Assembly (NCBI RefSeq): GCF_000025325.1
Contig: NC_013747.1
Span: 62,001 to 126,000, forward strand
DNA: 64,000 nucleotides
From: Haloterrigena turkmenica DSM 5511
GTDB lineage: Archaea > Halobacteriota > Halobacteria > Halobacteriales > Natrialbaceae
Direction: 5' to 3'
The position numbers were made by a program, and so were the translations under genes. Numbering within the stretch: position 1 is the first letter of the stretch; every line of letters begins with the position of its first letter. Below are positions 3,074-56,655 of this stretch, piece after piece. Under the pieces are notes generated by a model. The model worked only from the letters and a program-made list of their open reading frames with translations. It did not search any database and was not told the DNA's origin.

Positions 3074-5281
3074 ATGAACGCACGCAATCAGCTACTTGCG
3101 GTACTCACCGCGTTGATGCTGGTGTGCTCGAGCGGGGCGATGGTCGTCGGTGCGGCACCGACAACCGTCGACGAGCACACTCAGGTCGACGACGATGAGA
3201 CCGACGTACCCGAGGAAGGGAACGACACATCGACAGCCGAGGACACCACCGATAGTGTCGCGGAGGAATCGAACGACAGCGATGCGGAAGAACCGACTGG
3301 GGAGGAAAACCAGTCGGAAGAACTGATCGATGAGGAAGTCGACGGCGAGCAAGACGCCTACGTCAACTTCAGCGATCAGGCGACCGAGGGCGAGACGGTC
3401 GTCATCGATAACGTGACCATGGCGAGCGGTGGATTCGTCGTGATTCACGACAGCAGCCTGCTGGCCGGCGGCGAAAACGTCTTCTCGAGCGTCATCGGGA
3501 CGTCCGCATATCTCGAGGCGGGAACGCACGAGAACGTTGAAGTGACGTTCGACGAACCGCTCACGGAAGACGAGACGCTGATCGCGATGCCCCATCGCGA
3601 CACGAACGCGAACGAGACGTACGATTTCGTCGAAACCGAGGGTGCAGCCGACGCTCCGTACCTGACGGCAGAGGATGATCCGGTCACCGATCAGGCTGTC
3701 GTCACCGTGGGCGAGCCGGCAGCCGAGGAGCCGAACGAGACTGAAGAACCGGTCGACGAGGTACCGGTTGAAGAACCGAACGAGACCGAAGAACCGGTCG
3801 ACGAGGTACCGGTTGAAGAACCGAACGAGACCGAAGAACCGGTCGACGAAGAACCGGTTGAGGTGCCGAACGAGACCGAAGAACCAGTCGAAGAAGAAGA
3901 ACCGGTTGAGGTGCCGAACGAAACTGAAGAGCCAGTCATCGAGGAGCCCAACGAGACCGATGACGGCAGAATAAGCGTCCACATCGAAAACGTGACCGTC
4001 TTCGTGTTCCTCGGAGACCACCCGGACATGCCCGCAGCCAATGAGAGCTACTCCGGGTGCAACACAGACGGAATCTCCGTCGAGAACGGTACCGATACTG
4101 CTAACGAGACCGATACGAGTACCGAAACCGGCGCTGCGACTGAGGGCACGTTCGAGATGGGCGAGCAGCAGATAGACGTCACGCTCGGCCAGGTCACGGT
4201 CGTTCCGGTCAGCCAGCACCAGTCCGGAATGAGTGATCACCATGCCGGAACGGGCGAGTCGGTCCACGAGCAGTCCAACGAGACCGAATCACCGATCGAG
4301 GCACAGCCCGGAGCGGCCGATAACGGCAACGCCGATATCGTCATCGAGCAAGCGACCGTCTTCGTGTTCATCGGGGACACCGGCGAGCTCCCCGAACAGC
4401 CGGTCGAAGAACCGAACGAGACTGAAGAGCCGATCGTTGAGGAACCGAACGAAACCGAAGAGCCAGTTGAGGACGAAGAAACCGGAGAGACGATCATCGA
4501 GGAATCGAACGAGACTGAAGAGCCGGTCGTTGAGGAACCCAACGAGACTGAAGAGCCGGTCGTTGAGGAACCCAACGAGACTGAAGAGCCGGTCGTTGAG
4601 GAACCCAACGAGACTGAAGAGCCGGTCGTTGAGGAACCCAACGAGACTGAAGAGCCGGTCGTTGAGGAACCCAACGAGACTGAAGAGCCGGTCGTTGAGG
4701 AACCCAACGAGACCGAAGAACCGATCGTTGAGGAACCCAACGAAACCGAAGAGCCAGTTGAGGACGAAGAAACCGGAGAGACGATCATCGAGGAATCGAA
4801 CGAGACCGAAGAGCCAGTTGAGGAACCCAACGAAACCGAAGAGCCAGTTGAGGACGAAGAAACCGCTGATTCGTTCACGGTCGAGAACCTTCAGGCTCCC
4901 GCCACCGCCGAGGCCGGTGAGCCGCTCACCGTCACGGCAACGGTCACGAACCCGACGGACGAGGAGCGAACCGAAGCGGTCCAGTTCCGTCTGGACGGTG
5001 ACTTAGTCGAAGCGCAGGAAACGACGCTGGCAGCCGGTGAGACCACTGACGTCGAGTTCGAGGTCGACACGAGCGACATCGAGCCCGGACAGTACGTCCA
5101 CATGGTCCTCACTGACTTCTCCGGCGAGGTCAGCGCGATCGAGATCACCGCGGCGACGAGCGGTGACAGCGACCTCGAGAGTGAAGGTGACCTCGAGAAC
5201 GACACGACCGTCGACGGAGAGACCAACGTCACCGTCAACGAGAGCACCAACGCGACGGCCGGCATCACCGCCGCGAACTGA
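3074..5281 (+). CDS. Secreted acidic repeat glycoprotein with DUF7282-like domain
   Basis: The 735-residue product begins with a Sec-type signal (MNARNQLLAVLTALMLVC followed by SSGAMVVGAA). After an acidic linker comes a DUF7282-like domain (about residues 95-220: YVNFSDQATEGETVVIDNV, HDSSLLAGGENVFSSVIG, LIAMPHRDTN). Then come two arrays of 11-residue EEPNETEEPVV-type repeats, separated by two related segments ending VTVFVFLGD and ATVFVFIGD. The C-terminus (about 610-700) looks like a CARDB-type beta domain (LTVTATVTNPTDEE). Nearly every repeat contains NET, an N-glycosylation sequon, so the stalk is probably a densely glycosylated rod. I see no PGF-CTERM or C-terminal membrane helix, so release or non-covalent attachment is likely. 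The inner ATG is chosen because it starts a clean signal peptide. Function unknown; probably a cell-surface stalk. Confidence 0.88.
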   Translation: MNARNQLLAVLTALMLVCSSGAMVVGAAPTTVDEHTQVDDDETDVPEEGNDTSTAEDTTDSVAEESNDSDAEEPTGEENQSEELIDEEVDGEQDAYVNFSDQATEGETVVIDNVTMASGGFVVIHDSSLLAGGENVFSSVIGTSAYLEAGTHENVEVTFDEPLTEDETLIAMPHRDTNANETYDFVETEGAADAPYLTAEDDPVTDQAVVTVGEPAAEEPNETEEPVDEVPVEEPNETEEPVDEVPVEEPNETEEPVDEEPVEVPNETEEPVEEEEPVEVPNETEEPVIEEPNETDDGRISVHIENVTVFVFLGDHPDMPAANESYSGCNTDGISVENGTDTANETDTSTETGAATEGTFEMGEQQIDVTLGQVTVVPVSQHQSGMSDHHAGTGESVHEQSNETESPIEAQPGAADNGNADIVIEQATVFVFIGDTGELPEQPVEEPNETEEPIVEEPNETEEPVEDEETGETIIEESNETEEPVVEEPNETEEPVVEEPNETEEPVVEEPNETEEPVVEEPNETEEPVVEEPNETEEPVVEEPNETEEPIVEEPNETEEPVEDEETGETIIEESNETEEPVEEPNETEEPVEDEETADSFTVENLQAPATAEAGEPLTVTATVTNPTDEERTEAVQFRLDGDLVEAQETTLAAGETTDVEFEVDTSDIEPGQYVHMVLTDFSGEVSAIEITAATSGDSDLESEGDLENDTTVDGETNVTVNESTNATAGITAAN
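4532..4729 (+). repeat. 33-bp tandem repeat array inside the surface protein
   Basis: A 33-bp unit encoding EEPNETEEPVV occurs as five identical consecutive copies (starting at 4532, 4565, 4598, 4631 and 4664) plus a sixth copy with a few changes at 4697. More diverged copies flank it from about 4405 and up to 4860, and an older array lies at 3725-3955. Identical copies amid diverged ones point to recent expansion by slippage or unequal recombination. The unit is a multiple of three, so length changes keep the frame. Confidence 0.95.
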
Positions 5282-27593: not shown

Positions 27594-28241
27594 ATGTCTC
27601 GAGACGATCCGCGGTCACGACGGAAAGTGCTTCAACTCGGCGGAAGCACGGCCGTAGCGGCCATTCTCGCCGGCTGTGGCGGCGGCGGGGGTCCCGGTGG
27701 AAACGACAGCGAGGAAAATGAATCGGGTAACGGTGAGGAGGGGACGAACGAGTCGGCGGGCGGCAACGAAACGAACGAAACGGAAGGCGGCAACGAAACG
27801 AACGAAACGGAAGGCGGCAACGAAACGAACGAAACAGAGGGTGGCAACGAAACAAACGAATCGGAAGGCGGCAACGAAACGAACGAGTCGGAAGGCGGCG
27901 GTGGCAGCGGAGCGCTGGAACCCGGTGAGATCGGACTCGGCGGCCAGACGCAGGCCTGGCAGGGCGCCATCCCCGAACAGATCGCCGGCGAGGAGAATCC
28001 GACGCTTACCCTCCAAGAGGGGGAGGCCTACGAGATCACGTGGGAGAACATGGACGGCGCCGGCCACAACATCCAGATTCTCGACGACAATGACGAGGTC
28101 GTCGACGACTACGAGACCGAGATCATGTCGGAGGAAGGTGAGACCCAGACGCTCGAGATCGACGAGGTAACCAGCGAAATGGCACAGTACGTCTGCGAAC
28201 CCCACCAAGCGACGATGAACGGCGATATCGAAGTCCAGTAA
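27594..28241 (+). CDS. Halocyanin-like blue copper lipoprotein (Tat-exported)
   Basis: The 215-residue product begins with a twin-arginine signal (SRRKVLQLGGSTAVAAI) and a lipobox LAGC with Cys28 as lipidation site. A flexible linker of Gly-Gly-Asn-Glu-Thr repeats (about residues 55-102) carries many N-glycosylation sequons. The C-terminal plastocyanin fold shows all four type-1 copper ligands: His158 in GAGHNIQIL and Cys201, His204, Met208 in CEPHQATM. It should sit on the outer membrane face as a mobile electron carrier. The upstream in-frame sequence is a shadow of the ZIP gene, so ATG 27594 is the start. Confidence 0.94.
   Translation: MSRDDPRSRRKVLQLGGSTAVAAILAGCGGGGGPGGNDSEENESGNGEEGTNESAGGNETNETEGGNETNETEGGNETNETEGGNETNESEGGNETNESEGGGGSGALEPGEIGLGGQTQAWQGAIPEQIAGEENPTLTLQEGEAYEITWENMDGAGHNIQILDDNDEVVDDYETEIMSEEGETQTLEIDEVTSEMAQYVCEPHQATMNGDIEVQ
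27768..27900 (+). repeat. 24-bp tandem repeat encoding GGNETNE(T/S)E
   Basis: About five to six copies of a 24-bp unit, some identical, encode the glycine-rich sequon linker of the halocyanin. It resembles in principle the NET repeats of the protein at 3074-5281 but has a different unit length and sequence. Confidence 0.85.
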
Positions 28242-36329: not shown

Positions 36330-37109
36330 ATGGGTGCAATTCGGGTAGACGGACTGGGCAAGTCCTACGGAGCCGTCGAGGCGGTGGCCGACATGAGCTT
36401 CACCGTCGAGTGCGGGGAGTTGTACGGGTTTCTCGGCCCGAACGGTGCCGGGAAGACGACCACGATCCGGACGCTGACGGGCCAGATACAGCCGGACGCG
36501 GGGACGGTTCGGGTTCTCGAGACCGATCCGGCGACCGAGCCGACCGAGACCCGGGAACGAGTCGGGATCCTGCCGGAGCAACAGTCGCCGCCGAGTTTCC
36601 TCACGCCGCGCGAGTACCTCGAGTTCGTCGGCGACGTCCGCAACCTCGATTCCGACCGGGTCGCCGAGCGGACGGCCGACTGGGCTCAGCGCCTGGGTTT
36701 CGAGAACAAACTCGACACGCTGCACACGGACCTCTCACGGGGCCAACAGCAGAAGGTAATGATCACGCAGGCGTTCCTCCACGAGCCCGACGTGGTCTTC
36801 ATCGACGAGCCGCTGGCGAACCTCGACCCGCTGGTCCAGGAGCAGGTCAAGCGGTTTCTCGTCTCCTACGCCGCCGGCGACAACGCCGTCTTCGTCTCAA
36901 CGCACAACATCGACGTCGCCGAGGAGATCTGTACGCGGGTCGGCATCGTCGCCGACGGTCGGATCGTGACCGAGCGGTCGCTCAGCGGAGACGGCGGCGT
37001 TGAGGACGGCGAGCACGACAGCGACGAATCGCTACTCGAGGTGTTCCTCGAGCGTGTCGAACGCGAGGACGCCCGAGACCTGCCCTCGCTCGAGCGGATC
37101 GACGCATGA
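36330..37109 (+). CDS. ABC transporter ATP-binding protein
   Basis: The 259-residue ATPase has Walker A GPNGAGKTT (36-44), signature LSRGQQQKVMI (about 135-146), Walker B VVFIDEPLANLDP and a His switch in VFVSTHNID. It resembles ABC-2 type exporters' nucleotide-binding subunits. The stop overlaps the permease start as ATGA, so both form one two-gene operon. The substrate is unknown. Confidence 0.95.
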   Translation: MGAIRVDGLGKSYGAVEAVADMSFTVECGELYGFLGPNGAGKTTTIRTLTGQIQPDAGTVRVLETDPATEPTETRERVGILPEQQSPPSFLTPREYLEFVGDVRNLDSDRVAERTADWAQRLGFENKLDTLHTDLSRGQQQKVMITQAFLHEPDVVFIDEPLANLDPLVQEQVKRFLVSYAAGDNAVFVSTHNIDVAEEICTRVGIVADGRIVTERSLSGDGGVEDGEHDSDESLLEVFLERVEREDARDLPSLERIDA

Positions 37110-38575
37110 GCGGGACAGCGACGACCGATCGATCGGGCCCCTCGGCGCGGCGGCTGCTCGGCGTGCTCTTCCGCGAGGAGTGGCGGCTCCACACCCAGCT
37201 GTTCGGCGGCTGGCGGTTCGCGCTCTTCCCGGAAGTCATCGCCGTGCTCGCGGTGGGTGCGACGGTGGCGTTGCGGGAGACGGGGACTGCGGACGGAACG
37301 ATCCTGATAGGGCTTCACGTCCTCGCGCTCGGTTTCGGCCTCTACAGCGGGACCGCCGGGTTCGCGGGTTCGGATATGCTCGAGAACGTGTTCGGCGAGC
37401 TCTCGTTGCTCCTCTCGTCGTCGACGACGCTCCCGCTGTCCCGACGGCGCCTGCTGGGCGTCTTTCTGCTGAAGGACGCGCTGTTCTACGCGGTCGCGTT
37501 CGTCCTGCCGATGGCGCTCTCGAACGCCGTACTGGCCGACCGTCTCGCGGGGGCGCCAGTCGCGGTGGGAGCGCTGTGGCTCTCGCTGTCACTGGTGTTC
37601 GCCGCCGGGATGGCCCTGACCGTCGCGCTGATCGCGGTCCGGACCCGCGGCGTGCCGACGTGGGCGATTACCGGTGCGACCGTCGTCGTCGCCGGCGCGG
37701 CGTGGCTGACGGGAACCGGCGGGGCCGTCTGGAACGCGTTCGTGCCGATCGAGGGGGAACCAGCCAGTGCGCTCGGACTGGCGGTCGGAACCGGAGTCGT
37801 CGGCGCGGCGTCGCTCGCCCTGTACGATCCGACCTACGGCCGGCCGTCGCGGACCGCCAGCGATCGGTTCGCCAGCCTCAGCGACGCGTTGCCGGACGAG
37901 GTTGTCGGCGCCGACAGCGCGCTCGTCTCGAAAACGCTGCTCGATCTGGCCCGTTCCTCGGGCGGCGTCATGAAGCCGTTCGTCTCCGCAGCCATCCTGC
38001 TGGCGCTGGTCGCCGCGCTCGTCGGCGTCGTCGACTCGATCACCGGGATCGCACCGGCACCGGGCGTCTTCTTCGGCGGCGTGCTGGGGCTGACCGCATT
38101 TACCACGTACAACTGGCTGACCCAGTTCGACTCGCTCGAGGCCTACCTCGCCTATCCCGTCTCGATCGACGACGTCTTCCGGGCGAAACGGATCGCATTC
38201 GTCCTCGTCGGCGCGCCGACGGTCGCGGTGCCGTACCTCGCGGCCGTGCTCTGGTTCGAGGCGACGCTGGTCGACGCAGTCGTCGGCGCGATCTTGCTCG
38301 CGGGCTACGCGCTGTACTACTACGGGCTGACCGTCTACATCGCCGGCTTCGATCCCAACGAGTTCCTCTTCGACGCCGTGCGGTTCTCGCTGTTCACCCT
38401 CGGCGTCGCTGTCGCACTCGTGCCGACGCTCGTCGCCGGGTTCGTCGTGGTGCCGCCTACCGGGGCCGTCGCGGCGGCGCTGGGTGTTGGTGGGGTCGGA
38501 TTCGGTGTCGTCGGGTTGGTTCTCTCGAGTCGGGCCGGACCGCGGTGGGAGCAGCGGTCTCGAGATGGCGACTGA
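37106..38575 (+). CDS. ABC transporter permease
   Basis: The 489-residue protein has about ten to twelve membrane helices, for example FGGWRFALFPEVIAVLAVGA, GVFLLKDALFYAVAFVLPMA, LGVAVALVPTLVAGFVVVPP and VGGVGFGVVGLVLSSRAGPR. It is translationally coupled to the upstream ATPase and should form the membrane part of an ABC-2 type exporter. No substrate clue. It is the last gene before the origin-associated non-coding DNA; its stop is only about 40 bases before the first ORB-like half site. Confidence 0.9.
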   Translation: MSGTATTDRSGPSARRLLGVLFREEWRLHTQLFGGWRFALFPEVIAVLAVGATVALRETGTADGTILIGLHVLALGFGLYSGTAGFAGSDMLENVFGELSLLLSSSTTLPLSRRRLLGVFLLKDALFYAVAFVLPMALSNAVLADRLAGAPVAVGALWLSLSLVFAAGMALTVALIAVRTRGVPTWAITGATVVVAGAAWLTGTGGAVWNAFVPIEGEPASALGLAVGTGVVGAASLALYDPTYGRPSRTASDRFASLSDALPDEVVGADSALVSKTLLDLARSSGGVMKPFVSAAILLALVAALVGVVDSITGIAPAPGVFFGGVLGLTAFTTYNWLTQFDSLEAYLAYPVSIDDVFRAKRIAFVLVGAPTVAVPYLAAVLWFEATLVDAVVGAILLAGYALYYYGLTVYIAGFDPNEFLFDAVRFSLFTLGVAVALVPTLVAGFVVVPPTGAVAAALGVGGVGFGVVGLVLSSRAGPRWEQRSRDGD

Positions 38576-38613
38576 AAGCGAGGGAGCTGTCAACAGCGGA
38601 GACCGGGTATACC

Positions 38614-38756
38614 GTTTTTGCAAGTGAACAGCCGGGACTCGAGACACCCCACCATTGCACGTGAAGCCGCCGGATTCAGGCTGCAGCTATCTGAAAAACG
38701 GTAGTCGAAGTACGTCTCGATAGCGCCTCCGAGACACCCCACTGCTTCATGTGAAG
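38614..38756 (+). repeat. T-class ORB-like sites, left end of origin locus (three copies)
   Basis: A half site TTTTTGCAAGTGAAC (38615-38629) is followed by two full variants, GACACCCCAC...GTGAAG at 38643-38666 and 38733-38756. They share the GTGAAG end of the T class, but the conserved half reads ACACCCCAC instead of ACACACCAC. Confidence 0.75.
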
Positions 38757-38931
38757 AACGCAATTTGAGTCGGTACTGTGGACGATTTCTACAACGTTGC
38801 TTCGTGAGAGACTGCGAGAAGAAAACAGCTGTGGGAACGATTCGGATAGCGGAATCGTCCGTCTGGATGCTGCCTGTCACTTCGCGAGAAGACTCTCTTG
38901 ACGGAACTACGACGCAGATATCCTTCCCCTC

Positions 38932-39072
38932 CCTCCACTGTTTCCGGAGCTTTCGGTTCTCGAAAGGGTACAAAAAGCTCCCACTCACACACCACTGTTT
39001 CCGAAGCTTCTGTTCCCAAAATGGCATGGAAAGCTACCGCCCACACACCACTGTTTCCGGAGCTTTCGGTTC
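38932..39072 (+). repeat. F-class repeat array, copy A (three units)
   Basis: Three units containing CACTGTTTCCGGAGCTTT or a near variant have their TTTCCG cores at 38941, 38998 and 39054, spaced 57 and 56 bp. The second and third begin with ACACACCAC, as in the other ORB classes. Single relatives occur at 39305-39327 and 40084-40105. Confidence 0.85.
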
Positions 39073-39151
39073 GCGAGGACGATTTGCCAGCGTAGAGTGG
39101 GCAGACAGGACATCGGTTTGCTCTCCTCGAGTCCGAAATCCTCCGGGAACG

Positions 39152-39175
39152 GACACCCCACTGATTCAAGTGAAG
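39152..39175 (+). repeat. T-class ORB-like site
   Basis: GACACCCCACTGATTCAAGT followed by GAAG; counterpart of 42433-42456 in copy B. Confidence 0.75.
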
Positions 39176-39546
39176 ATCTGCAGTTAAGAGACCGAACACT
39201 CACTGAGCGCAATATCGTATGAAAAAACGTTTGAACGGGTGGTGGGTGGGTAGCCTCTGTTACGCCACTGCTTTCGAAGAATCGACAGAATTCGAGGTGC
39301 CACTTACACACCATTATTTCCGGAGCTATCTCGAAGGCAGTTCGTCGCGTAAAGTAAGCAACCGATATCTCGTTTTCTGATCTTTTAGTTTGAACTTCTC
39401 GAGAGCGATCGAATACTAGACCGTTCACTAACTTCAGAAACAGTCGTGTGTGAGGGTCGCCTGTCTCCGTTCTCTCGAGAACCGAACGCTCCGGCCGTGG
39501 TGAATCGCGATAGGGCGTTGGATTATGAGATGAGCGGATAACGTCT

Positions 39547-39579
39547 ACACTGGAGCCCCCCGTACACTGGAACCGGGGT
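39547..39579 (+). repeat. G-class ORB-like pair A (TACACTGGA twice, with G-string)
   Basis: TACACTGGA at 39547 and TACACTGGAA at 39564 are followed by CCGGGG. A matching pair is at 42863-42897. The TACACTGGAA core plus a run of G is reminiscent of haloarchaeal ORBs that carry a G-string. Confidence 0.75.
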
Positions 39580-39681
39580 TCTCATGGCTCATGGCGTGTC
39601 AGGGTAGTCAATCAACGGAGTCTGATCTCACTTGAGTCGACTATTGATTCGAAGTTGGGGAACACTCCCCATCAGAGACAG

Positions 39682-39765
39682 TATCGTAGCCACTGAAAGT
39701 CAATGCACATCTGATCGCAGGATGTCGTTGCGATTAGTGTGTAAATCGTTTCAGTGGCTACGATA
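39682..39765. mobile_element. 84-bp MITE-like palindromic insertion
   Basis: Perfect 17-bp terminal inverted repeats TATCGTAGCCACTGAAA (39682-39698) and its reverse complement (39749-39765) enclose 50 bases. No coding capacity and no obvious target-site duplication were seen. The size and perfect termini suggest a miniature inverted-repeat element mobilised by a transposase elsewhere. Confidence 0.75.
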
Positions 39766-39906
39766 GCCAACTCGGACGCAGTATCGCTGCAAGTGAAGAC
39801 AGAAACTAAGTGGTGTCTACCGCCCGAATATCTCAAGTTTCCGCGTCCGACCTACGAACGATCCATACTCGTTGAAGGGTAGTTTTCGTTCCAAGTCGAC
39901 ACAGAG

Positions 39907-40172
39907 ACACACCATCCTTGCAAGTGAAACTGAGAGATATCAGGTCCCACTCTCGAGGAGTATCGCTGGCAGAGGATTCTAATGAGGCTAATGAGACACA
40001 CCACTCTTGCAAGTGAAGACGGGAAGCAAAAGACCTGATAGCGACGATTCCACCGGATAGATCAATAACTGAGATACCACCAAGACACCACTATTTCCGA
40101 TGCTATTTCGAGCACTAATCGAAGAGTCGAGAACGATTTGCTGGGAGAGACACACCACTTTTGCAAGTGAAG
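39907..40172 (+). repeat. T-class ORBs downstream of orc1/cdc6 (three copies)
   Basis: Full sites at 39907-39929, 39996-40018 and 40150-40172 have the form ACACACCAC (ACACACCAT in the first) joined to TTGCAAGTGAA. All three point the same way. They lie in the 300 bases after the stop of the orc gene. Confidence 0.88.
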
Positions 40173-40211
40173 TCAGACAAGATGTTGCATCCCAGTATTC
40201 GACGTAACGGA

Positions 40212-41438
40212 TCAGGAGATATCGTTCATGTCTGCGATATCGCGAATGACTTTGATTTCCCGATCGAGATACAGCACATCAGCCATCGCTTCGATAGCGC
40301 TAGTGAAGGGAACATTGAGACTATAACTATAATAGTTTCCACGGGACCCGCTGCGGTTCTCTGCTGCCGAGAGGATCCCAAGCATACGGAGGTCAGAGAG
40401 GTGATTATAAACTGATCGCTGTGCGAGAGAATCTGTTTCAGAGGACTCACAGAGGTCGAGATACTCCTGGTAAATCTCTCGAGTACGACACGGAGTCTCA
40501 TCCTTTGCTGCCTTAGAGATCACTGCGAGAAGTGTAAGGCGACCGTGAGTTGTGAGTTCTCGCATGCCCTCTTCGACGCGTTCCTGTTCAAGTTTCGAGC
40601 GTGCGGCCTCAACGTGATCCTCTCGGATACTATCGGCGTCCGTGCTTTCCGCGATTTCGCCGGCAAGCCGGAGGAGATCGAGTGCTTGACGCGCACTCCC
40701 GCTGTCGCGAGCGGCAAGTGCAGCACAAAGCTCGAGAACGCCGTTTTCGTACGCATCGTCTGCGATCGCGATATCTGCTCGAGAGGCGAGGATATTCCCT
40801 AATTCAGCGGCATCGTACGGAGGAAACTGGAGTTCTCGTTCACAGAGCGTGTCTTGAACTCGAGGATCGAGCTGCTCGCGAAATTTGAAATCGTTGCTAA
40901 TACCGATGACACCGACTCGCGTTGTCTCGAGATAGCCGTTCGATCGAGCTCGTGGGAGTTCATAGAGGAGTTCGTCTCGATCACCGATGGAGTCGATCTC
41001 GTCGAGAACGATGAGGATCGTTCCGCCGATAGCGTCAAGTTCGTCGTAAAGTTTCGAGAAGACCGTCTGCTGCGGATAGCCGGTCGAGCTGATTTCACTG
41101 CCGGATGGACGAAGTTCGTTGACCAGCCGAACTGCTACCTGATAGGAGGAGTTCAGTGTTTTACAGTTGATCGAAATAACAGAGAGATCGACGTCATCGT
41201 ACCGTTCAATATCGGTCTGGAGTTCCTCAAGGAGGTACTCAGTGACAGCAGTCTTCCCGACGCCCGTATTTCCGTAGATGAAGATATTGTTCGGTTCCCA
41301 CCCATCTACGACCGGCTGGAGCGCGTCTGTGTACGCAGCGATTTCTTCATCTCGTTCTTCGATCTCCGGTGGCTGGTACGATTCACCCAGTGCGTCTTTG
41401 TTTCGGAATATCGTTCTCTTACGTTCGAACCGACTCAT
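40212..41438 (-). CDS. orc1/cdc6: Orc1/Cdc6 replication initiator (origin A)
   Basis: From ATG 41438 the protein is 408 residues. AAA+ motifs: Walker A GNTGVGKTAVTEYL, Walker B ILIVLDEIDSIGDRDELLYE, sensor-1 region GVIGISNDFKFREQLDPRVQ and sensor-2 region ALAARDSGSARQALDLLRLA. The C-terminal winged helix (about 300-385: LAQRSVYNHLSDLRMLGILS, SGSRGNYYSYSL) binds origin DNA. A TTG at 41453 is possible but the ATG is preferred: TTTTATATTA (minus strand, 41459-41468) lies about 21-30 bases upstream. T-class ORBs just upstream suggest it binds them and represses itself. It initiates replication and recruits MCM. Confidence 0.95.
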   Translation of the reverse strand: MSRFERKRTIFRNKDALGESYQPPEIEERDEEIAAYTDALQPVVDGWEPNNIFIYGNTGVGKTAVTEYLLEELQTDIERYDDVDLSVISINCKTLNSSYQVAVRLVNELRPSGSEISSTGYPQQTVFSKLYDELDAIGGTILIVLDEIDSIGDRDELLYELPRARSNGYLETTRVGVIGISNDFKFREQLDPRVQDTLCERELQFPPYDAAELGNILASRADIAIADDAYENGVLELCAALAARDSGSARQALDLLRLAGEIAESTDADSIREDHVEAARSKLEQERVEEGMRELTTHGRLTLLAVISKAAKDETPCRTREIYQEYLDLCESSETDSLAQRSVYNHLSDLRMLGILSAAENRSGSRGNYYSYSLNVPFTSAIEAMADVLYLDREIKVIRDIADMNDIS

Positions 41439-41458
41439 GTGTAATGAATTCAACTAAG

Positions 41459-41527
41459 GTAATATAAAACCACTCTTTCATCTGGTTCAAGTGAAGAACA
41501 GAGACACACCACTCTTGCAAGTGAAGC
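41459..41527 (-). promoter_or_regulatory. orc1/cdc6 (A) promoter with two T-class ORBs
   Basis: The minus-strand TATA box (41459-41468) is adjacent to a longer ORB variant (41467-41496, AAACCACT...GTTCAAGTGAAG) and a canonical T-class ORB at 41504-41526. Initiator binding here would block TBP/TFB access, so autoregulation is likely. Confidence 0.7.
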
Positions 41528-41555
41528 CATTGACGCAGTATCCACCGAAGACAAC

Positions 41556-41700
41556 ACACCACTATTACATCCAATCAGCGCACATATTATATAATATACA
41601 TGTATAGATTAGAGTAACATAATCATACGAGCGACCCGGTTATTCTCCGATTGGTCCATCTGAATTTTTACTTGTAATAGTAATGTGGCTGAATAGTTCG
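41556..41700. other. AT-rich candidate unwinding element of origin A
   Basis: Between the promoter ORB (41504-41526) and the inverted ORB (41908-41930) lies CATATTATATAATATACATG and further AT-rich DNA to about 41700. CCAATC at 41571 and GATTGG at 41649 form a short inverted repeat around it. This is the expected layout of a haloarchaeal duplex-unwinding element. Confidence 0.7.
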
Positions 41701-41907
41701 AAGCCATAGCAGTTGGAACCAGTTACCGACGTAGCCGCCGAAATCTACACCATCGACGATCAATTCGACTGATTATGCAGATAGGAAATTTCCTAATCTG
41801 AGTTCTGACCGTCATTATCGGTGGAAATCCTCGTAATTACGCTGGAAAGCCCCTTCCCCCTCCCACTGAGTGTTACGACGACGGGTATCACATCCCATTC
41901 AGAACGG

Positions 41908-41930
41908 CTTCACTTGCAAAAGTGGTGTGT
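41908..41930 (-). repeat. Inverted T-class ORB, right border of origin A core
   Basis: CTTCACTTGCAAAAGTGGTG followed by TGT, the exact reverse complement of the T-class consensus. It faces the sites at 41467-41526. Confidence 0.88.
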
Positions 41931-42009
41931 GAGTGTTGGTCTGAATCCCCATCCGCTCGAATCGACTATCGATATCGCGGAGACCGACTCTTTAGATGCT
42001 ACATCGAAG

Positions 42010-42533
42010 AGACACCCCACCGTTACATGTGAAGCCGCCGGATTTGAGTCGGTACTGTGGACGATTTCTACAACGTAGCTTTGTGAGAGACTGCGAGCAG
42101 AAAACGACTGTGGGAGCGGTTCAGATAGCGGAACCGTCTCTCTGGATGCTGCTACTACTTCGTGAGAAGACTCCCCTGACGGAACTGCGACACGGATATC
42201 CCCTCCCTCCCTCCACTGTTTCCGGAGCTTTTGGCCCTCCAGAACGGCGCGAAAAGATACCAGCCACACACCACTATTTCCGAAGCTTTTGTTCTCAGAA
42301 GGATACAGAAAGACGCCAATCCACACACACACTGTTTCCGGAACTTTCGATTCGCGAAGACAGTTTGCCAGTGTAGAGTGGACAGACACGACATCGGTTT
42401 GCTCTCCTCGAGTCTGAAATCCTTCGGGAACAGACACCCCACGGATTCAAGTGAAGATCTGCAGTTGAGAGGCTACATACCCACTACACGTAATATTAGA
42501 AAAGATGTGAAAACGTTTGGATGGGTGGTGTCT
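42010..42533 (+). repeat. Duplicated block, copy B
   Basis: Diverged direct copy of 38641-39243. It begins with an ORB variant (42012-42034), holds the second F-class array and ends with an ORB variant (42433-42456) plus a related AT-rich tail (AAAACGTTTGGATGGGTGGT). Confidence 0.9.
42210..42353 (+). repeat. F-class repeat array, copy B (three units)
   Basis: TTTCCG cores at 42219, 42277 and 42335 give a regular 58-bp spacing. Units read CACTGTTTCCGGAGCTTT, CACTATTTCCGAAGCTTT and CACTGTTTCCGGAACTTT. The regular spacing recalls iterons. Confidence 0.85.
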
Positions 42534-42648
42534 CTCTCATCAGTGAGCAATTAGAGGGGAACCCTAGTGTTGCCAAGCGAGATCGTTAGAAGAGACTTTC
42601 GCTAGACAGTGGTTGGTCCGTGCTTCGTAAGAGGACAAAAATCGATAG

Positions 42649-42858
42649 GGGGAAGTCTCACAGCGAATAGTACGAGAGAAACTTAACGATCTCTCCCACC
42701 AGAAGATCCTGTCTCAGTCCCGTCGCGGTCGTGGACAGGGCCACGGGATGTCGAACTTCTATTCGATTTTAATCGATCCCGAGCTCGCGATCGAAGCGTT
42801 TGCAGAAGACCCACATCTCGAGAGCGTCGCGGAAATTCTCCGCGAGATGAACAGATAA
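42649..42858 (+). pseudogene. Decayed Orc1/Cdc6 C-terminal fragment
   Basis: The frame ending at TAA 42856-42858 reads back 69 codons: GEVSQRIVREKLNDLSHQKI, LSQSRRGRGQGHGMSNFYSI, LIDPELAIEAFAEDPHLESV and AEILREMNR. The first half aligns with the winged-helix end of the intact Orc at 40212-41438 (AQRSVYNHLSDLRMLGILS...GNYYSYSL). Upstream the frame is broken by TAG and TAA, and no AAA+ domain remains. This is a truncated initiator gene in the orientation opposite to the intact one. G-class ORB-like sites start 5 bases after its stop. Confidence 0.8.
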
Positions 42859-42862
42859 CGTC

Positions 42863-42897
42863 TACACTGGAATACCCCCGTACACTGGAACTGGGGG
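42863..42897 (+). repeat. G-class ORB-like pair B
   Basis: TACACTGGAA at 42863-42872 and 42881-42890 followed by GGGGG; counterpart of 39547-39579. A third single TACACTGGAA is at 43076-43085. Confidence 0.75.
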
Positions 42898-43149
42898 TTC
42901 TCGTGCTTCATAATCTCTCAGGGTGCAGTGACAAGAACTGTGGAAGCCGTTCGCTCGAGTCGACGACCGATTCGATATGCGAGTAGAACTGCTCAACCGC
43001 CCGAGAAAGCGAACTCACCACTTGAATATGAATCCAGCAGGTTGAGCGGTATCTACCGGTCGAATGTATCGGGCTTACACTGGAACCCCCTCCCTCTCCC
43101 CCACCCCGGATCTGTCGGATAGCGAACGTCGGTGGGCACTCGGAAACGG

Positions 43150-43174
43150 TTTCACTTGCAGCGCTGGTGTGTGT
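43150..43174 (-). repeat. Inverted T-class ORB, right end of the locus
   Basis: TTTCACTTGCAGCGCTGGTG followed by TGTGT. It is the outermost site on the right and faces the direct sites on the left. Confidence 0.8.
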
Positions 43175-43244
43175 CTGTGTTCGATTCCACTCGTTACCAG
43201 AATATCCGTGAGTGCCGAGTATGTCACTGCTCTGTGGTTGGAGA

Positions 43245-43268
43245 ACCCTCCCTGCTTCACGGAGGGGT
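43245..43268. other. Short hairpin near the cbiP start
   Basis: ACCCTCC and GGAGGGGT flank a 9-base loop, an imperfect stem. It could be a terminator-like or leader structure, or a scar of an IS200/IS605-type element end; there is not enough to decide. Confidence 0.3.
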
Positions 43269-43390
43269 ATCGAACACCACCGTGGCGAGAAAGTCGACCT
43301 CGAGAGGGGCTCGCCGCTGGAATCGGACGACGAGTAGCGAACCGAACCGATAGGACGATACCGAACGCCGCGCGAATGAGACCCACACGA

Positions 43391-45007
43391 ATGACCAGAA
43401 CGCTGCTCGTCGCCGGAACCGCGAGCCACGTCGGCAAGTCGACGGTCGCCGCCGGCCTCTGTCGGTTGCTCGCCGACCGCGAGGTCGACATCGCCCCCTT
43501 CAAGGGCCAGAACATGAGCAACAACGCTCGAGTGGTCGTCCGGCCCGAGGGCGCAGAGCCGGGAGAACTCGCGACCGAAAACGAGGACGGAACCGAAACG
43601 GACGCCGACCGCTGGGGCGAGATCGGCGTCTCGCAGTTCGTGCAGGCTCGAGCGGCCCGCATCACCCCTACGACCGACTGCAACCCGGTCCTGCTCAAAC
43701 CCCGCGGCGACGGGGAGAGTCAGCTGGTTCTGCAGGGTCGGGCCCACGAACACGTCCCGGCCAGCCGGTACTACGAGGAGTTCTGGGACGAGGCCCGCGA
43801 GGCCGCCGAGGAGTCCTACAGACGGCTTGCGGCCGACCACGAGGTGATCGTCGCAGAGGGCGCCGGCAGCATCGGCGAGATCAACCTCCACGATCGGGAC
43901 CTCGCGAACGTCGAGACCGCCGCGTTCGCCGACGCCGATATCCTCCTGCTGGTCGACATCGAGCGCGGCGGGGCCTTCGCCAGCCTCTACGGCACCATCG
44001 AGCTCCTGCCGGACTCGCTGCGCGAGCGGGTCGTCGGCGCGGTCATCACCAAGTTCCGCGGCGACCGGTCGCTGCTCGAGCCCGGTATCGAGGAGATCGA
44101 GTCGAAGACCGGCGTGCCGGTTCTGGGCGTGCTACCATACGACGACCCCGGCCTGCCCGAGGAGGACAGCGTCGGCTTGCCGTCGCGGAGCGAGCGCGGC
44201 GTGCTGGGCGACGACGACGGCGTTCCCGACGAACGCCGACTCACGATCGCCGTCCCCCGACTCCCCCGGATTTCGAACGCGACGGACCTCGAGGCGCTGG
44301 CCGCGGAGCCGGGCGTCTCGGTCGCGTTCGTGCCGGTCGAAGCGGGGCCGACGGCCGAGGAGCGAGCGATCAGTACCGATCCCCTCGCGGCCGTCGACGC
44401 CGACGCGGTCGTCGTACCGGGCACCAAGAACACGGTCGACGATCTACTGGCGCTCCACGAGGCCGGCTTCGCCGACGCGCTCGCAGCGTTCGACGGGCCG
44501 ATCGTCGGCGTCTGCGGCGGCTACCAGCTACTCGGGGAACGGATTACGAACGCGGATCTCGAGGGGACCGGCGACGATGCCGTCGTCGAGGGCCTCGGGC
44601 TGTTGCCAGTCGAAACGCGGTTCGAGGGGACCAAGCGGTTAGAGCAGACGACGGTTCCCGTCGACGGCGAGGCGTCGCCGCTGCTGGCCGGCGCCGACGG
44701 CACCGCGTCGGGCTACGAGATCCACGCCGGACGAACGCGAGTACTCGAGGGAGAAACCGAAGAAATCGCCCGCCCGCTCGGCGACTCGAGTGCGGCCCGC
44801 GGACGGGTGCTCGGGACGTACCTCCACGGCCTGTTCGACAACGAGGCGGTCCGAACGGCGTTTCTCGAGGCCGTCGCGTCGGAGGCGGGAATCGACCGCC
44901 CGCGTCGCAACGGTGAGACGACCGGATCGACGCCGTACGACCGCGCTGCGGCACTGGTCGGCGAGCACATCGCTCTCGAGGCGCTCGGCCCGCCGTTCGA
45001 CTCGTGA
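43391..45007 (+). CDS. cbiP: Cobyric acid synthase, glutamine-hydrolysing
   Basis: From ATG 43391 the product is 538 residues. The N-terminal synthase domain begins [20 protein letters not shown] with [13 protein letters not shown], and [15 protein letters not shown] follows. The C-terminal class I glutaminase has the nucleophile Cys375 in [17 protein letters not shown] and the His of [10 protein letters not shown]. It amidates four side-chain carboxylates of adenosylcobyrinic diamide. About 35 acidic residues ([17 protein letters not shown] region) are inserted compared with bacterial enzymes. ATG 43376, five codons upstream, is also possible. Confidence 0.95.
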
Positions 45008-55408: not shown

Positions 55409-56614
55409 CTACGCGTCGTCGGTCTCGACGAGCACCTTCCGGACGACGTCCGGGTCCTCGAGCAGTTGGTGTTCGGTGTAGCTCCCCTCGGCGCTGCCGC
55501 CGCTCTGGCGGGACTGCTCGATGATGTCGAGGAAGGCGTGTTCCTTCAGGAGGTCGCGGACGCGGCGCAAGGAGAGCGTGTCCGACCCCTCCTGTCGACA
55601 GATCTCCTCGTAGACGTCGAAGATCTTAGTCGTTCGAAAGCCGTCCTCGTCGGGCGTGTTGAGCGCGAGGACCGCGAGAGCTTGCAGGACGTACCGAGAA
55701 TGGGGCGTCGAGCCCCGAATGAGTTCCCGGAACCGATCGGTCTCGGCGCGTTCGCGGGCCTGCACGACGTACTCCTCGCGAACCGTCTCGCTGCCGTTCG
55801 ATTGGGCGATCTCGCCGGCGTAGCGAAGGATGTCGATCGCCTTCCGCGCGTCGCCGTGTTCCCGTGCTGCGAGGGCGGCGGCTCGAGGGATGACCGAGGG
55901 CTCGAGGACGCCGTCCTTGAACGCGTCGCTGCGGGCCTGCATGATGTCCCGTAGCTGGTTGGCGTCGTAGGGCGGGAAGACGAACTCCCGCTCGCAGAGG
56001 CTGGACTTGACCCGCTCGTCCATTCGGTCTTTGTACTTGATCTTGTTGCTGATTCCGATGACGCCGATCTTGCAGTCATCGAGTTTGCCGGCCTCGCCCG
56101 CGCGCGAGAGTTGCATGAGGATGTCGTCGTCGTCGAGCTTATCGACCTCGTCCAAGATGATGAGGACGACCTCGTACTGGGAGTCCAGCACCGTCCAGAG
56201 GCGCTTATAGTAGGTCGACGTGCTGAGCCCCTTGTCGGGAATCTTGATATCGGTCCGCTCGGGATCGTTCAGCGAGTAGGCGATCGTCTGGACCGCCTGC
56301 GTCTCCGTGCTGTCCTGGGCGCAGTCGACGTAGGCGAACTCCGCGGTGACGCCCTCCTCCGTCGCGACGCGGACCAGCCGTTCGGAGATGTGTTTCGCAC
56401 AGAGAGACTTCCCCGTGCCCGTCTTCCCGTAGATGAGCAGGTTGCTCGGACTCTGCCCGAAGATCGCCGGGTTGACGGCGTTGGCGAGATCGGAGATCTC
56501 GTCGTCCCGGCCGACGATCCGCCCCTCCTCCGGGAGGTGATTGATCTCGAGCAGCTCCTTGTTCTCGAAGATCGGGTCGTCACGGGTAAACAGGTCGTCG
56601 CCGGAACTCGACAT
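55409..56614 (-). CDS. orc1/cdc6: Orc1/Cdc6 replication initiator (origin B)
   Basis: From ATG 56614 the protein is 401 residues. It has Walker A GKTGTGKSLCAKHI, Walker B VVLIILDEVDKLDDDDILMQ, sensor-1 IGVIGISNKIKYKDRMDERV and a sensor-2 region REHGDARKAIDILRYAGEIA. The C-terminal winged helix is SLRRVRDLLKEHAFLDIIEQ with GSAEGSYTEHQLLEDPDVVR. It is clearly diverged from the Orc at 40212-41438, so this is not a recent duplication. The five-codon longer start at 56629 is unlikely because it would overlap the ORB at the promoter. It should initiate at the C-class ORBs upstream. Confidence 0.96.
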   Translation of the reverse strand: MSSSGDDLFTRDDPIFENKELLEINHLPEEGRIVGRDDEISDLANAVNPAIFGQSPSNLLIYGKTGTGKSLCAKHISERLVRVATEEGVTAEFAYVDCAQDSTETQAVQTIAYSLNDPERTDIKIPDKGLSTSTYYKRLWTVLDSQYEVVLIILDEVDKLDDDDILMQLSRAGEAGKLDDCKIGVIGISNKIKYKDRMDERVKSSLCEREFVFPPYDANQLRDIMQARSDAFKDGVLEPSVIPRAAALAAREHGDARKAIDILRYAGEIAQSNGSETVREEYVVQARERAETDRFRELIRGSTPHSRYVLQALAVLALNTPDEDGFRTTKIFDVYEEICRQEGSDTLSLRRVRDLLKEHAFLDIIEQSRQSGGSAEGSYTEHQLLEDPDVVRKVLVETDDA

Positions 56615-56622
56615 GATCGTAG

Positions 56623-56655
56623 ACACCACGTTTCCGGTGAAACGTCTTTATTGTT
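56623..56655 (-). promoter_or_regulatory. orc1/cdc6 (B) promoter overlapped by a C-class ORB
   Basis: ACACCACGTTTCCGGTGAAA (56623-56642) starts 9 bases before the ATG. The TATA-like CAATAAAG (minus strand, about 56646-56653) lies just behind it. The ORB would therefore cover the transcription start, a classic arrangement for initiator autorepression. Confidence 0.7.

Follow-up and report, generated by a model that had tools for sequence, protein, structure and literature searches.

The window analysed here comprises 64,000 nucleotides of Haloterrigena turkmenica DSM 5511 and lies on a replicon of 171,943 bp, which we take to be pHTUR04. Within it, a permease gene (37106-38575, + strand) and the cobyric acid synthase gene cbiP (43391-45007, + strand) enclose an intergenic region, referred to here as the origin slot (38576-43390), which is syntenic in five congeners and in genomes G103, G107 and G109. 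Most of this gap is taken up by duplicated DNA. A first-pass annotation had described two long direct repeats with point differences, and these hold up: in a local alignment, 38731-39244 of the copy A block (38641-39244) and the copy B block (42009-42530) are 84.3% identical over 509 columns, with a score of 544, compared with a top score of 31 among 200 Markov-shuffled versions of copy A. The similarity extends beyond the ORBs, as an ORB-free part of the block (38763-38873/42042-42152) is 90% identical. Three classes of ORB recur in both blocks, i.e., P (38644, 38734 and 39153), F (38933, 38990 and 39046) and G (39227, - strand) in copy A, and P (a fused site at 42012, and 42434), F (42211, 42269 and 42327) and G (42513, - strand) in copy B. 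The indel of about 90 bp that had been noticed between two ORB variants corresponds to 38641-38730, which is present in copy A and in the single block of Haloterrigena sp. KLK7 (G005) and missing from copy B. In copy A and KLK7, two P-class ORBs lie 90 bp apart, whereas copy B has one, whose left part matches the first P ORB of copy A and whose right flank matches the second; judging by this junction, copy B has lost the 90 bp through fusion of two neighbouring P ORBs.

The repeats form part of a larger duplicated unit of about 1.3 kb, which consists of the block and two further segments, X and Y. A weaker second similarity, also reported at first pass, is real and corresponds to X (39525-39605/42842-42924, 83.5% over 79 columns), and a third homologous stretch, which had escaped that annotation, pairs 39764-39840 plus 41837-41940 with about 43001-43180. 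X and Y (41837-41940/about 43068-43180) follow in the same order in both halves, and the copies abut directly, with unit one ending at 42008 and unit two beginning at 42009. To the right of its block, copy A continues with an F-ORB segment found in this copy only (39245-39524), of which 39306-39452 is, in inverted orientation, 89% identical to DNA beside the F-type orc of G001. It is followed by X (39525-39683), which holds the final codons of an E-type orc relict and E ORBs at 39546 and 39564, by a MITE (39684-39763), by the end of copy A to the left of the cassette (XE, 39764-39840), by the T-type initiator cassette (39841-41836) and by Y (41837-42008), the right end of the first unit, which carries an E-like motif and an inverted T ORB (41908-41930, - strand). 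X and Y of copy B (42842-43180) contain E ORBs at 42863, 42881 and 43076 and an inverted T-like ORB at 43150 (- strand). The MITE, bounded by 15-bp inverted ends (TCGTAGCCACTGAAA) and a TA duplication, is of IS630/mariner type by its ends, is absent from G002 and has several more copies on the chromosome; it is an insertion separate from the cassette.

The intact orc and its core do lie between the repeats, as had been proposed, but simple bracketing fails, since Y of copy A lies beyond the orc and abuts copy B. This arrangement places the cassette inside copy A of a tandem duplication. Moreover, XE is joined directly to Y in G002 (L067, 9228-9152 next to 9153-9054), which indicates that 39841-41836 of the window is an insertion inside the first unit. 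An insertion flanked by a target duplication was rejected, because the repeats are too long and too diverged for it, and because X and Y of a single unit, rather than two separate units, flank the cassette. An assembly error is unlikely, given that the copies differ by 16% and that the genome of H. turkmenica DSM 5511 is finished (PMC3035258).

The cassette comprises an orc gene, an AT-rich core and ORBs, i.e., T ORBs at 39907, 39996, 40150 and 41504 and one F-like ORB at 40086. Its intact T-type orc1/cdc6 (40212-41453, - strand) encodes 413 aa from a TTG, although an ATG at 41438 is the likelier start, and all expected domains are present (AAA+ with Walker A GNTGVGKT, Cdc6 lid, winged helix). 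The inward T ORBs at 41504 (+) and 41908 (-) enclose the most AT-rich 50 bp of the slot (41581-41630, 78% AT), a probable unwinding element. The slot thus combines two features of an orc1/cdc6-adjacent origin of haloarchaea, namely, an intact Orc and inward family-specific ORBs around AT-rich DNA beside the orc. It is reasonable to assume that T-Orc binds the inward T ORBs and opens 41581-41630, that the live origin lies there, and that the duplicated blocks would be dispensable for it. Nonetheless, because the P ORBs closely resemble T ORBs, T-Orc may continue to bind within part of the duplicated block. The origin of the cassette itself appears to be foreign. Between the window and G002, the T-orcs agree at 46% of fourfold sites, compared with 83% for the neighbouring genes, a difference which, although weakened by the codon composition of T-orc (GC4 of 0.55 vs. 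about 0.9), suggests that the cassette and the backbone have had different histories. The replicon carries another orc1/cdc6 (window 55412-56647, - strand), orthologs of which occur on the corresponding plasmid of each of the five congeners; this gene may serve the replicon as a stable initiator while the slot turns over. Elsewhere, the window contains 33-, 45- and 27-bp tandem repeats (3680-4875 and 27717-27926), which apparently encode acidic Glu/Asn/Thr-rich stretches, probably of surface proteins.

The ORBs of the slot belong to classes that are found with different initiators in other genomes. T ORBs accompany 20 T-type orcs, which range across many genera from Natrinema to Halocatena. 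F ORBs are essentially confined to the surroundings of the F-type orc of G001 and to slots with a T-orc (the window, G002 and one weak match at L016), and are also present in KLK7; G ORBs are limited to the G-type orc loci of G003 and G004 (five sites each) and of G103, apart from one or two sites in the window and G002 (in the window, one per block). E ORBs lie on both sides of an intact E-type orc in G107 and G109. In pattern searches of the 5.44-Mb H. turkmenica genome, made class by class, all matches to F (seven), T (four), E (two) and G (two) fell within the slot. The other orcs of this genome reach at most 42% identity to the T, F or G type, and the genome contains neither an E-type gene besides the relict nor an orc closely related to that relict. 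Provided that the specificity of pairing described for haloarchaea (PMC3528665) applies, the F, G and E ORBs have lost their cognate initiators and are orphans, and we infer that they are fossils.

It could be argued that the duplicated ORB arrays are not fossils but are maintained by selection as an iteron-like array for titration of T-Orc and copy control. The P ORBs of both blocks are indeed close to T ORBs, and all ORB classes have been kept in both blocks while the spacers drifted. However, F and G ORBs pair with other Orc families, and T-orc loci of other genera have few T ORBs and lack such arrays, so we regard this explanation as rather improbable.

A remnant of a displaced initiator is also still present. 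The C-terminal relict of an E-type orc1/cdc6 is found in the window, KLK7, G002 and G103. In copy B (42653-42857, + strand; VSQRIVREKL...ILREMNR*), it consists of the last 67 codons and the stop, with no upstream gene; KLK7 retains the same 67 codons and stop, and E ORBs follow in both. The KLK7 relict DNA is 82% identical to the intact E-orc of G109, on the same strand and with the same E ORBs after it. About 30-36 codons remain in G002 and the final few codons only in copy A. An E-type initiator appears to be older still and to have left a C-terminal gene stump and ORBs. The earlier proposal that a T-class origin had entered, or come to lie beside, an older F/G-class origin is supported, as the F and G ORBs pair with the orcs of G001 and of G003, G004 and G103 and these relatives carry them in the same gap; it is incomplete, since it omitted the older E type.

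The same slot can be followed through the relatives. The five Haloterrigena congeners share the flanks (btuR-ABC-permease on one side, cbiP and a CopG-type regulator on the other) and differ in what lies between. G002 has a T-type orc that is 92% identical to that of the window, G001 an F-type orc (49%), G003 and G004 a G-type orc (53-56%) and KLK7 a single block with no orc and no annotated gene. In a different genus, this gap is occupied by an intact E-type orc in G107 and G109 and, in G103, by a G-type orc broken by an insertion together with an E-type stump. In the other genomes of the family that were examined, permease and cbiP are adjacent, spaced without one of these orcs, or apart. 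The T, F, G and E types fall into distinct branches of a maximum-likelihood tree, in which that of G001 is a long single branch whose exact place is unsure. The same flanking genes therefore enclose non-orthologous initiators, as would be expected for replacement in place. Within the slot, the position of the cassette differs between G002 and the window.

Two side observations concern these genomes. About 1 kb inside the G-type orc of G103 (L129, 1872-2900) reads like a transposase gene, IS630-like by eye. A chromosomal orc of 633-668 aa, kept in all congeners (L079 5-2008 on chromosome C1, L099, L102, L103, L105 and L106), matches the query in two pieces separated by about 500 bp, a gap that could hold an intein or an inserted domain.

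Direct repeats flanking an orc, and T-orcs at unrelated places in many genera, would also be expected if the long repeats were the ends of a transposon-like, mobile orc cassette. Such a unit is nevertheless very improbable, because the repeats are missing from 19 named orc loci of other records, KLK7 has the block without any cassette, and no transposase or integrase was recognised in the slot. A composite transposon flanked by insertion sequences was rejected on similar grounds, as the slot contains no recognisable transposase gene and the repeats do not recur at other orc loci.

The single block of KLK7 is a hybrid of the two window copies. Its left side resembles copy A (98% at 38731-38818; 94% over the 90-bp segment) and its right side copy B (96% from 39011; 95% through the spacer and X). 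In a change-point test on 92 informative sites, 13 A-like and three B-like sites lie on the left and 10 A-like and 66 B-like sites on the right (permutation p of 5e-5). In a 115-bp zone (38819-38934), KLK7 is equally close to both copies; thus, the exchange was not perfectly clean. KLK7 also has one extra F-ORB unit, with an A-type spacer, an ORB and a B-type spacer in this order, which locates the switch within an F-class ORB, with A and B offset by one unit. With its A-like left and B-like right, the KLK7 block is one recombination step away from the window, and the comparison shows the window copies and single-copy KLK7 to be related, in their sequences, as by one reciprocal exchange inside an F-class ORB. 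The suggestion that the direct repeats would permit excision is thereby supported by a natural single-copy form with an A/B hybrid block. As in Campbell-type integration or excision, the single-copy relative agrees with the outer halves of the copies, their inner halves having diverged, and is itself a left-A/right-B hybrid with one switch (apart from the mixed zone). Unlike in the Campbell type, the crossover falls within an ORB, itself a short repeat, with the copies misaligned by one repeat unit.

Integration of a circle of approx. 3.2 kb into a KLK7-like plasmid and excision of such a circle from a window-like plasmid would give exactly these sequences. Integration is mildly favoured, since one event suffices and the T-orc differs from its flanks in fourfold-site agreement. 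The block of G001 diverges just to the right of the exchange point, so it is unusable as an outgroup for this choice, and when a T-orc contig of 4.1 kb (L022) was tested for circularity, its ends did not overlap. Under the competing account, an ancient tandem duplication of the slot in place was followed by entry of the T-orc into one of the copies; these then diverged, and recombination between the repeats later removed the cassette from KLK7. We consider this account somewhat less likely than not to be correct, but it is the most serious of the alternatives. The KLK7 block is exactly what recombination between A and B should leave, and the direct abutment of the copies at 42008/42009 also speaks for it. 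On the other hand, the right halves of A and B differ by 18-19%, compared with about 4% between B and KLK7, which would make the duplication far older than the split, and a slot with two copies occurs in no other congener among the five compared; an extra loss is also required.

Taken together, the locus is probably a palimpsest of replication origins, in which initiator and ORBs have been serially replaced in place. By comparison with the relatives, the permease-cbiP gap would be a fixed origin slot on a replicon common to Haloterrigena and a related genus, where the initiator and its matching ORBs were replaced several times by the non-orthologous E, F, G and T types, and where older ORBs and the E-type gene stump were left behind. 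The leftover binding sites and the stump appear to derive from at least three earlier initiators. In H. turkmenica, the slot DNA is doubled in tandem, with the T cassette (orc, AT-rich core and inward T ORBs) within the first copy, as the alignments indicate. The circle of approx. 3.2 kb, carrying a diverged T-orc origin, would then have integrated beside the old origin, or such a circle left the ancestor of KLK7. The simple model does not account for the differing position of the cassette in G002, which counts against it. A more tentative possibility is that ORBs serve as recombination sites for initiator swaps in archaeal replicons. Exchange within repeated ORBs would add or remove a circle of orc plus core beside the old origin, producing a tandem stage with two origins, of which H. 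turkmenica could be the intermediate and KLK7 the outcome.

The slot can be compared with two previously described situations. As in haloarchaeal orc1/cdc6-ORB pairs, it contains an orc gene, family-specific ORBs and an AT-rich region between inward ORBs (PMC3528665). Wu et al. (2012, PMC3528665) listed pHTUR04 with three orc genes, all with predicted origins, linked one ORB family to one orc family, argued against internal duplication and found just two cases of two kinds of ORB near one orc. In contrast to those pairs, the window slot includes a tandem duplicate and the relict of a gene, and its ORBs belong to four orc families. In a variable region of Haloarcula, gain, loss and disruption of origins have been described for one and the same site of the chromosome (Wu et al. 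2014, PMC4441112). That case shares with ours the turnover of origins at one place; however, it involves a large variable region with transposases, whereas the turnover here is confined to a gap that measures 4.8 kb at most and has conserved genes on either side; fossils of several initiators are kept in it, and the point of exchange can be located within an ORB.

Turnover of archaeal origins is usually deduced from whether entire origins are present or absent. In this case, a single short gap, with flanks still common to the congeners, appears to record at least four successive or alternative initiators, a displaced stump, orphan ORBs and an exchange point inside an ORB. This also carries a warning that ORB-based origin prediction can count fossils. 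For example, the KLK7 plasmid region L066 7286-8844 has no annotated genes and ORBs of several classes, and a matching orc was not found in the KLK7 genome; a search based on ORBs would predict an origin there that may be dead. The comparison with related plasmids suggests that archaea can swap the initiator of a replicon repeatedly at one spot, and how a replicon changes its initiator without losing replication would be directly testable in these cultivable species.
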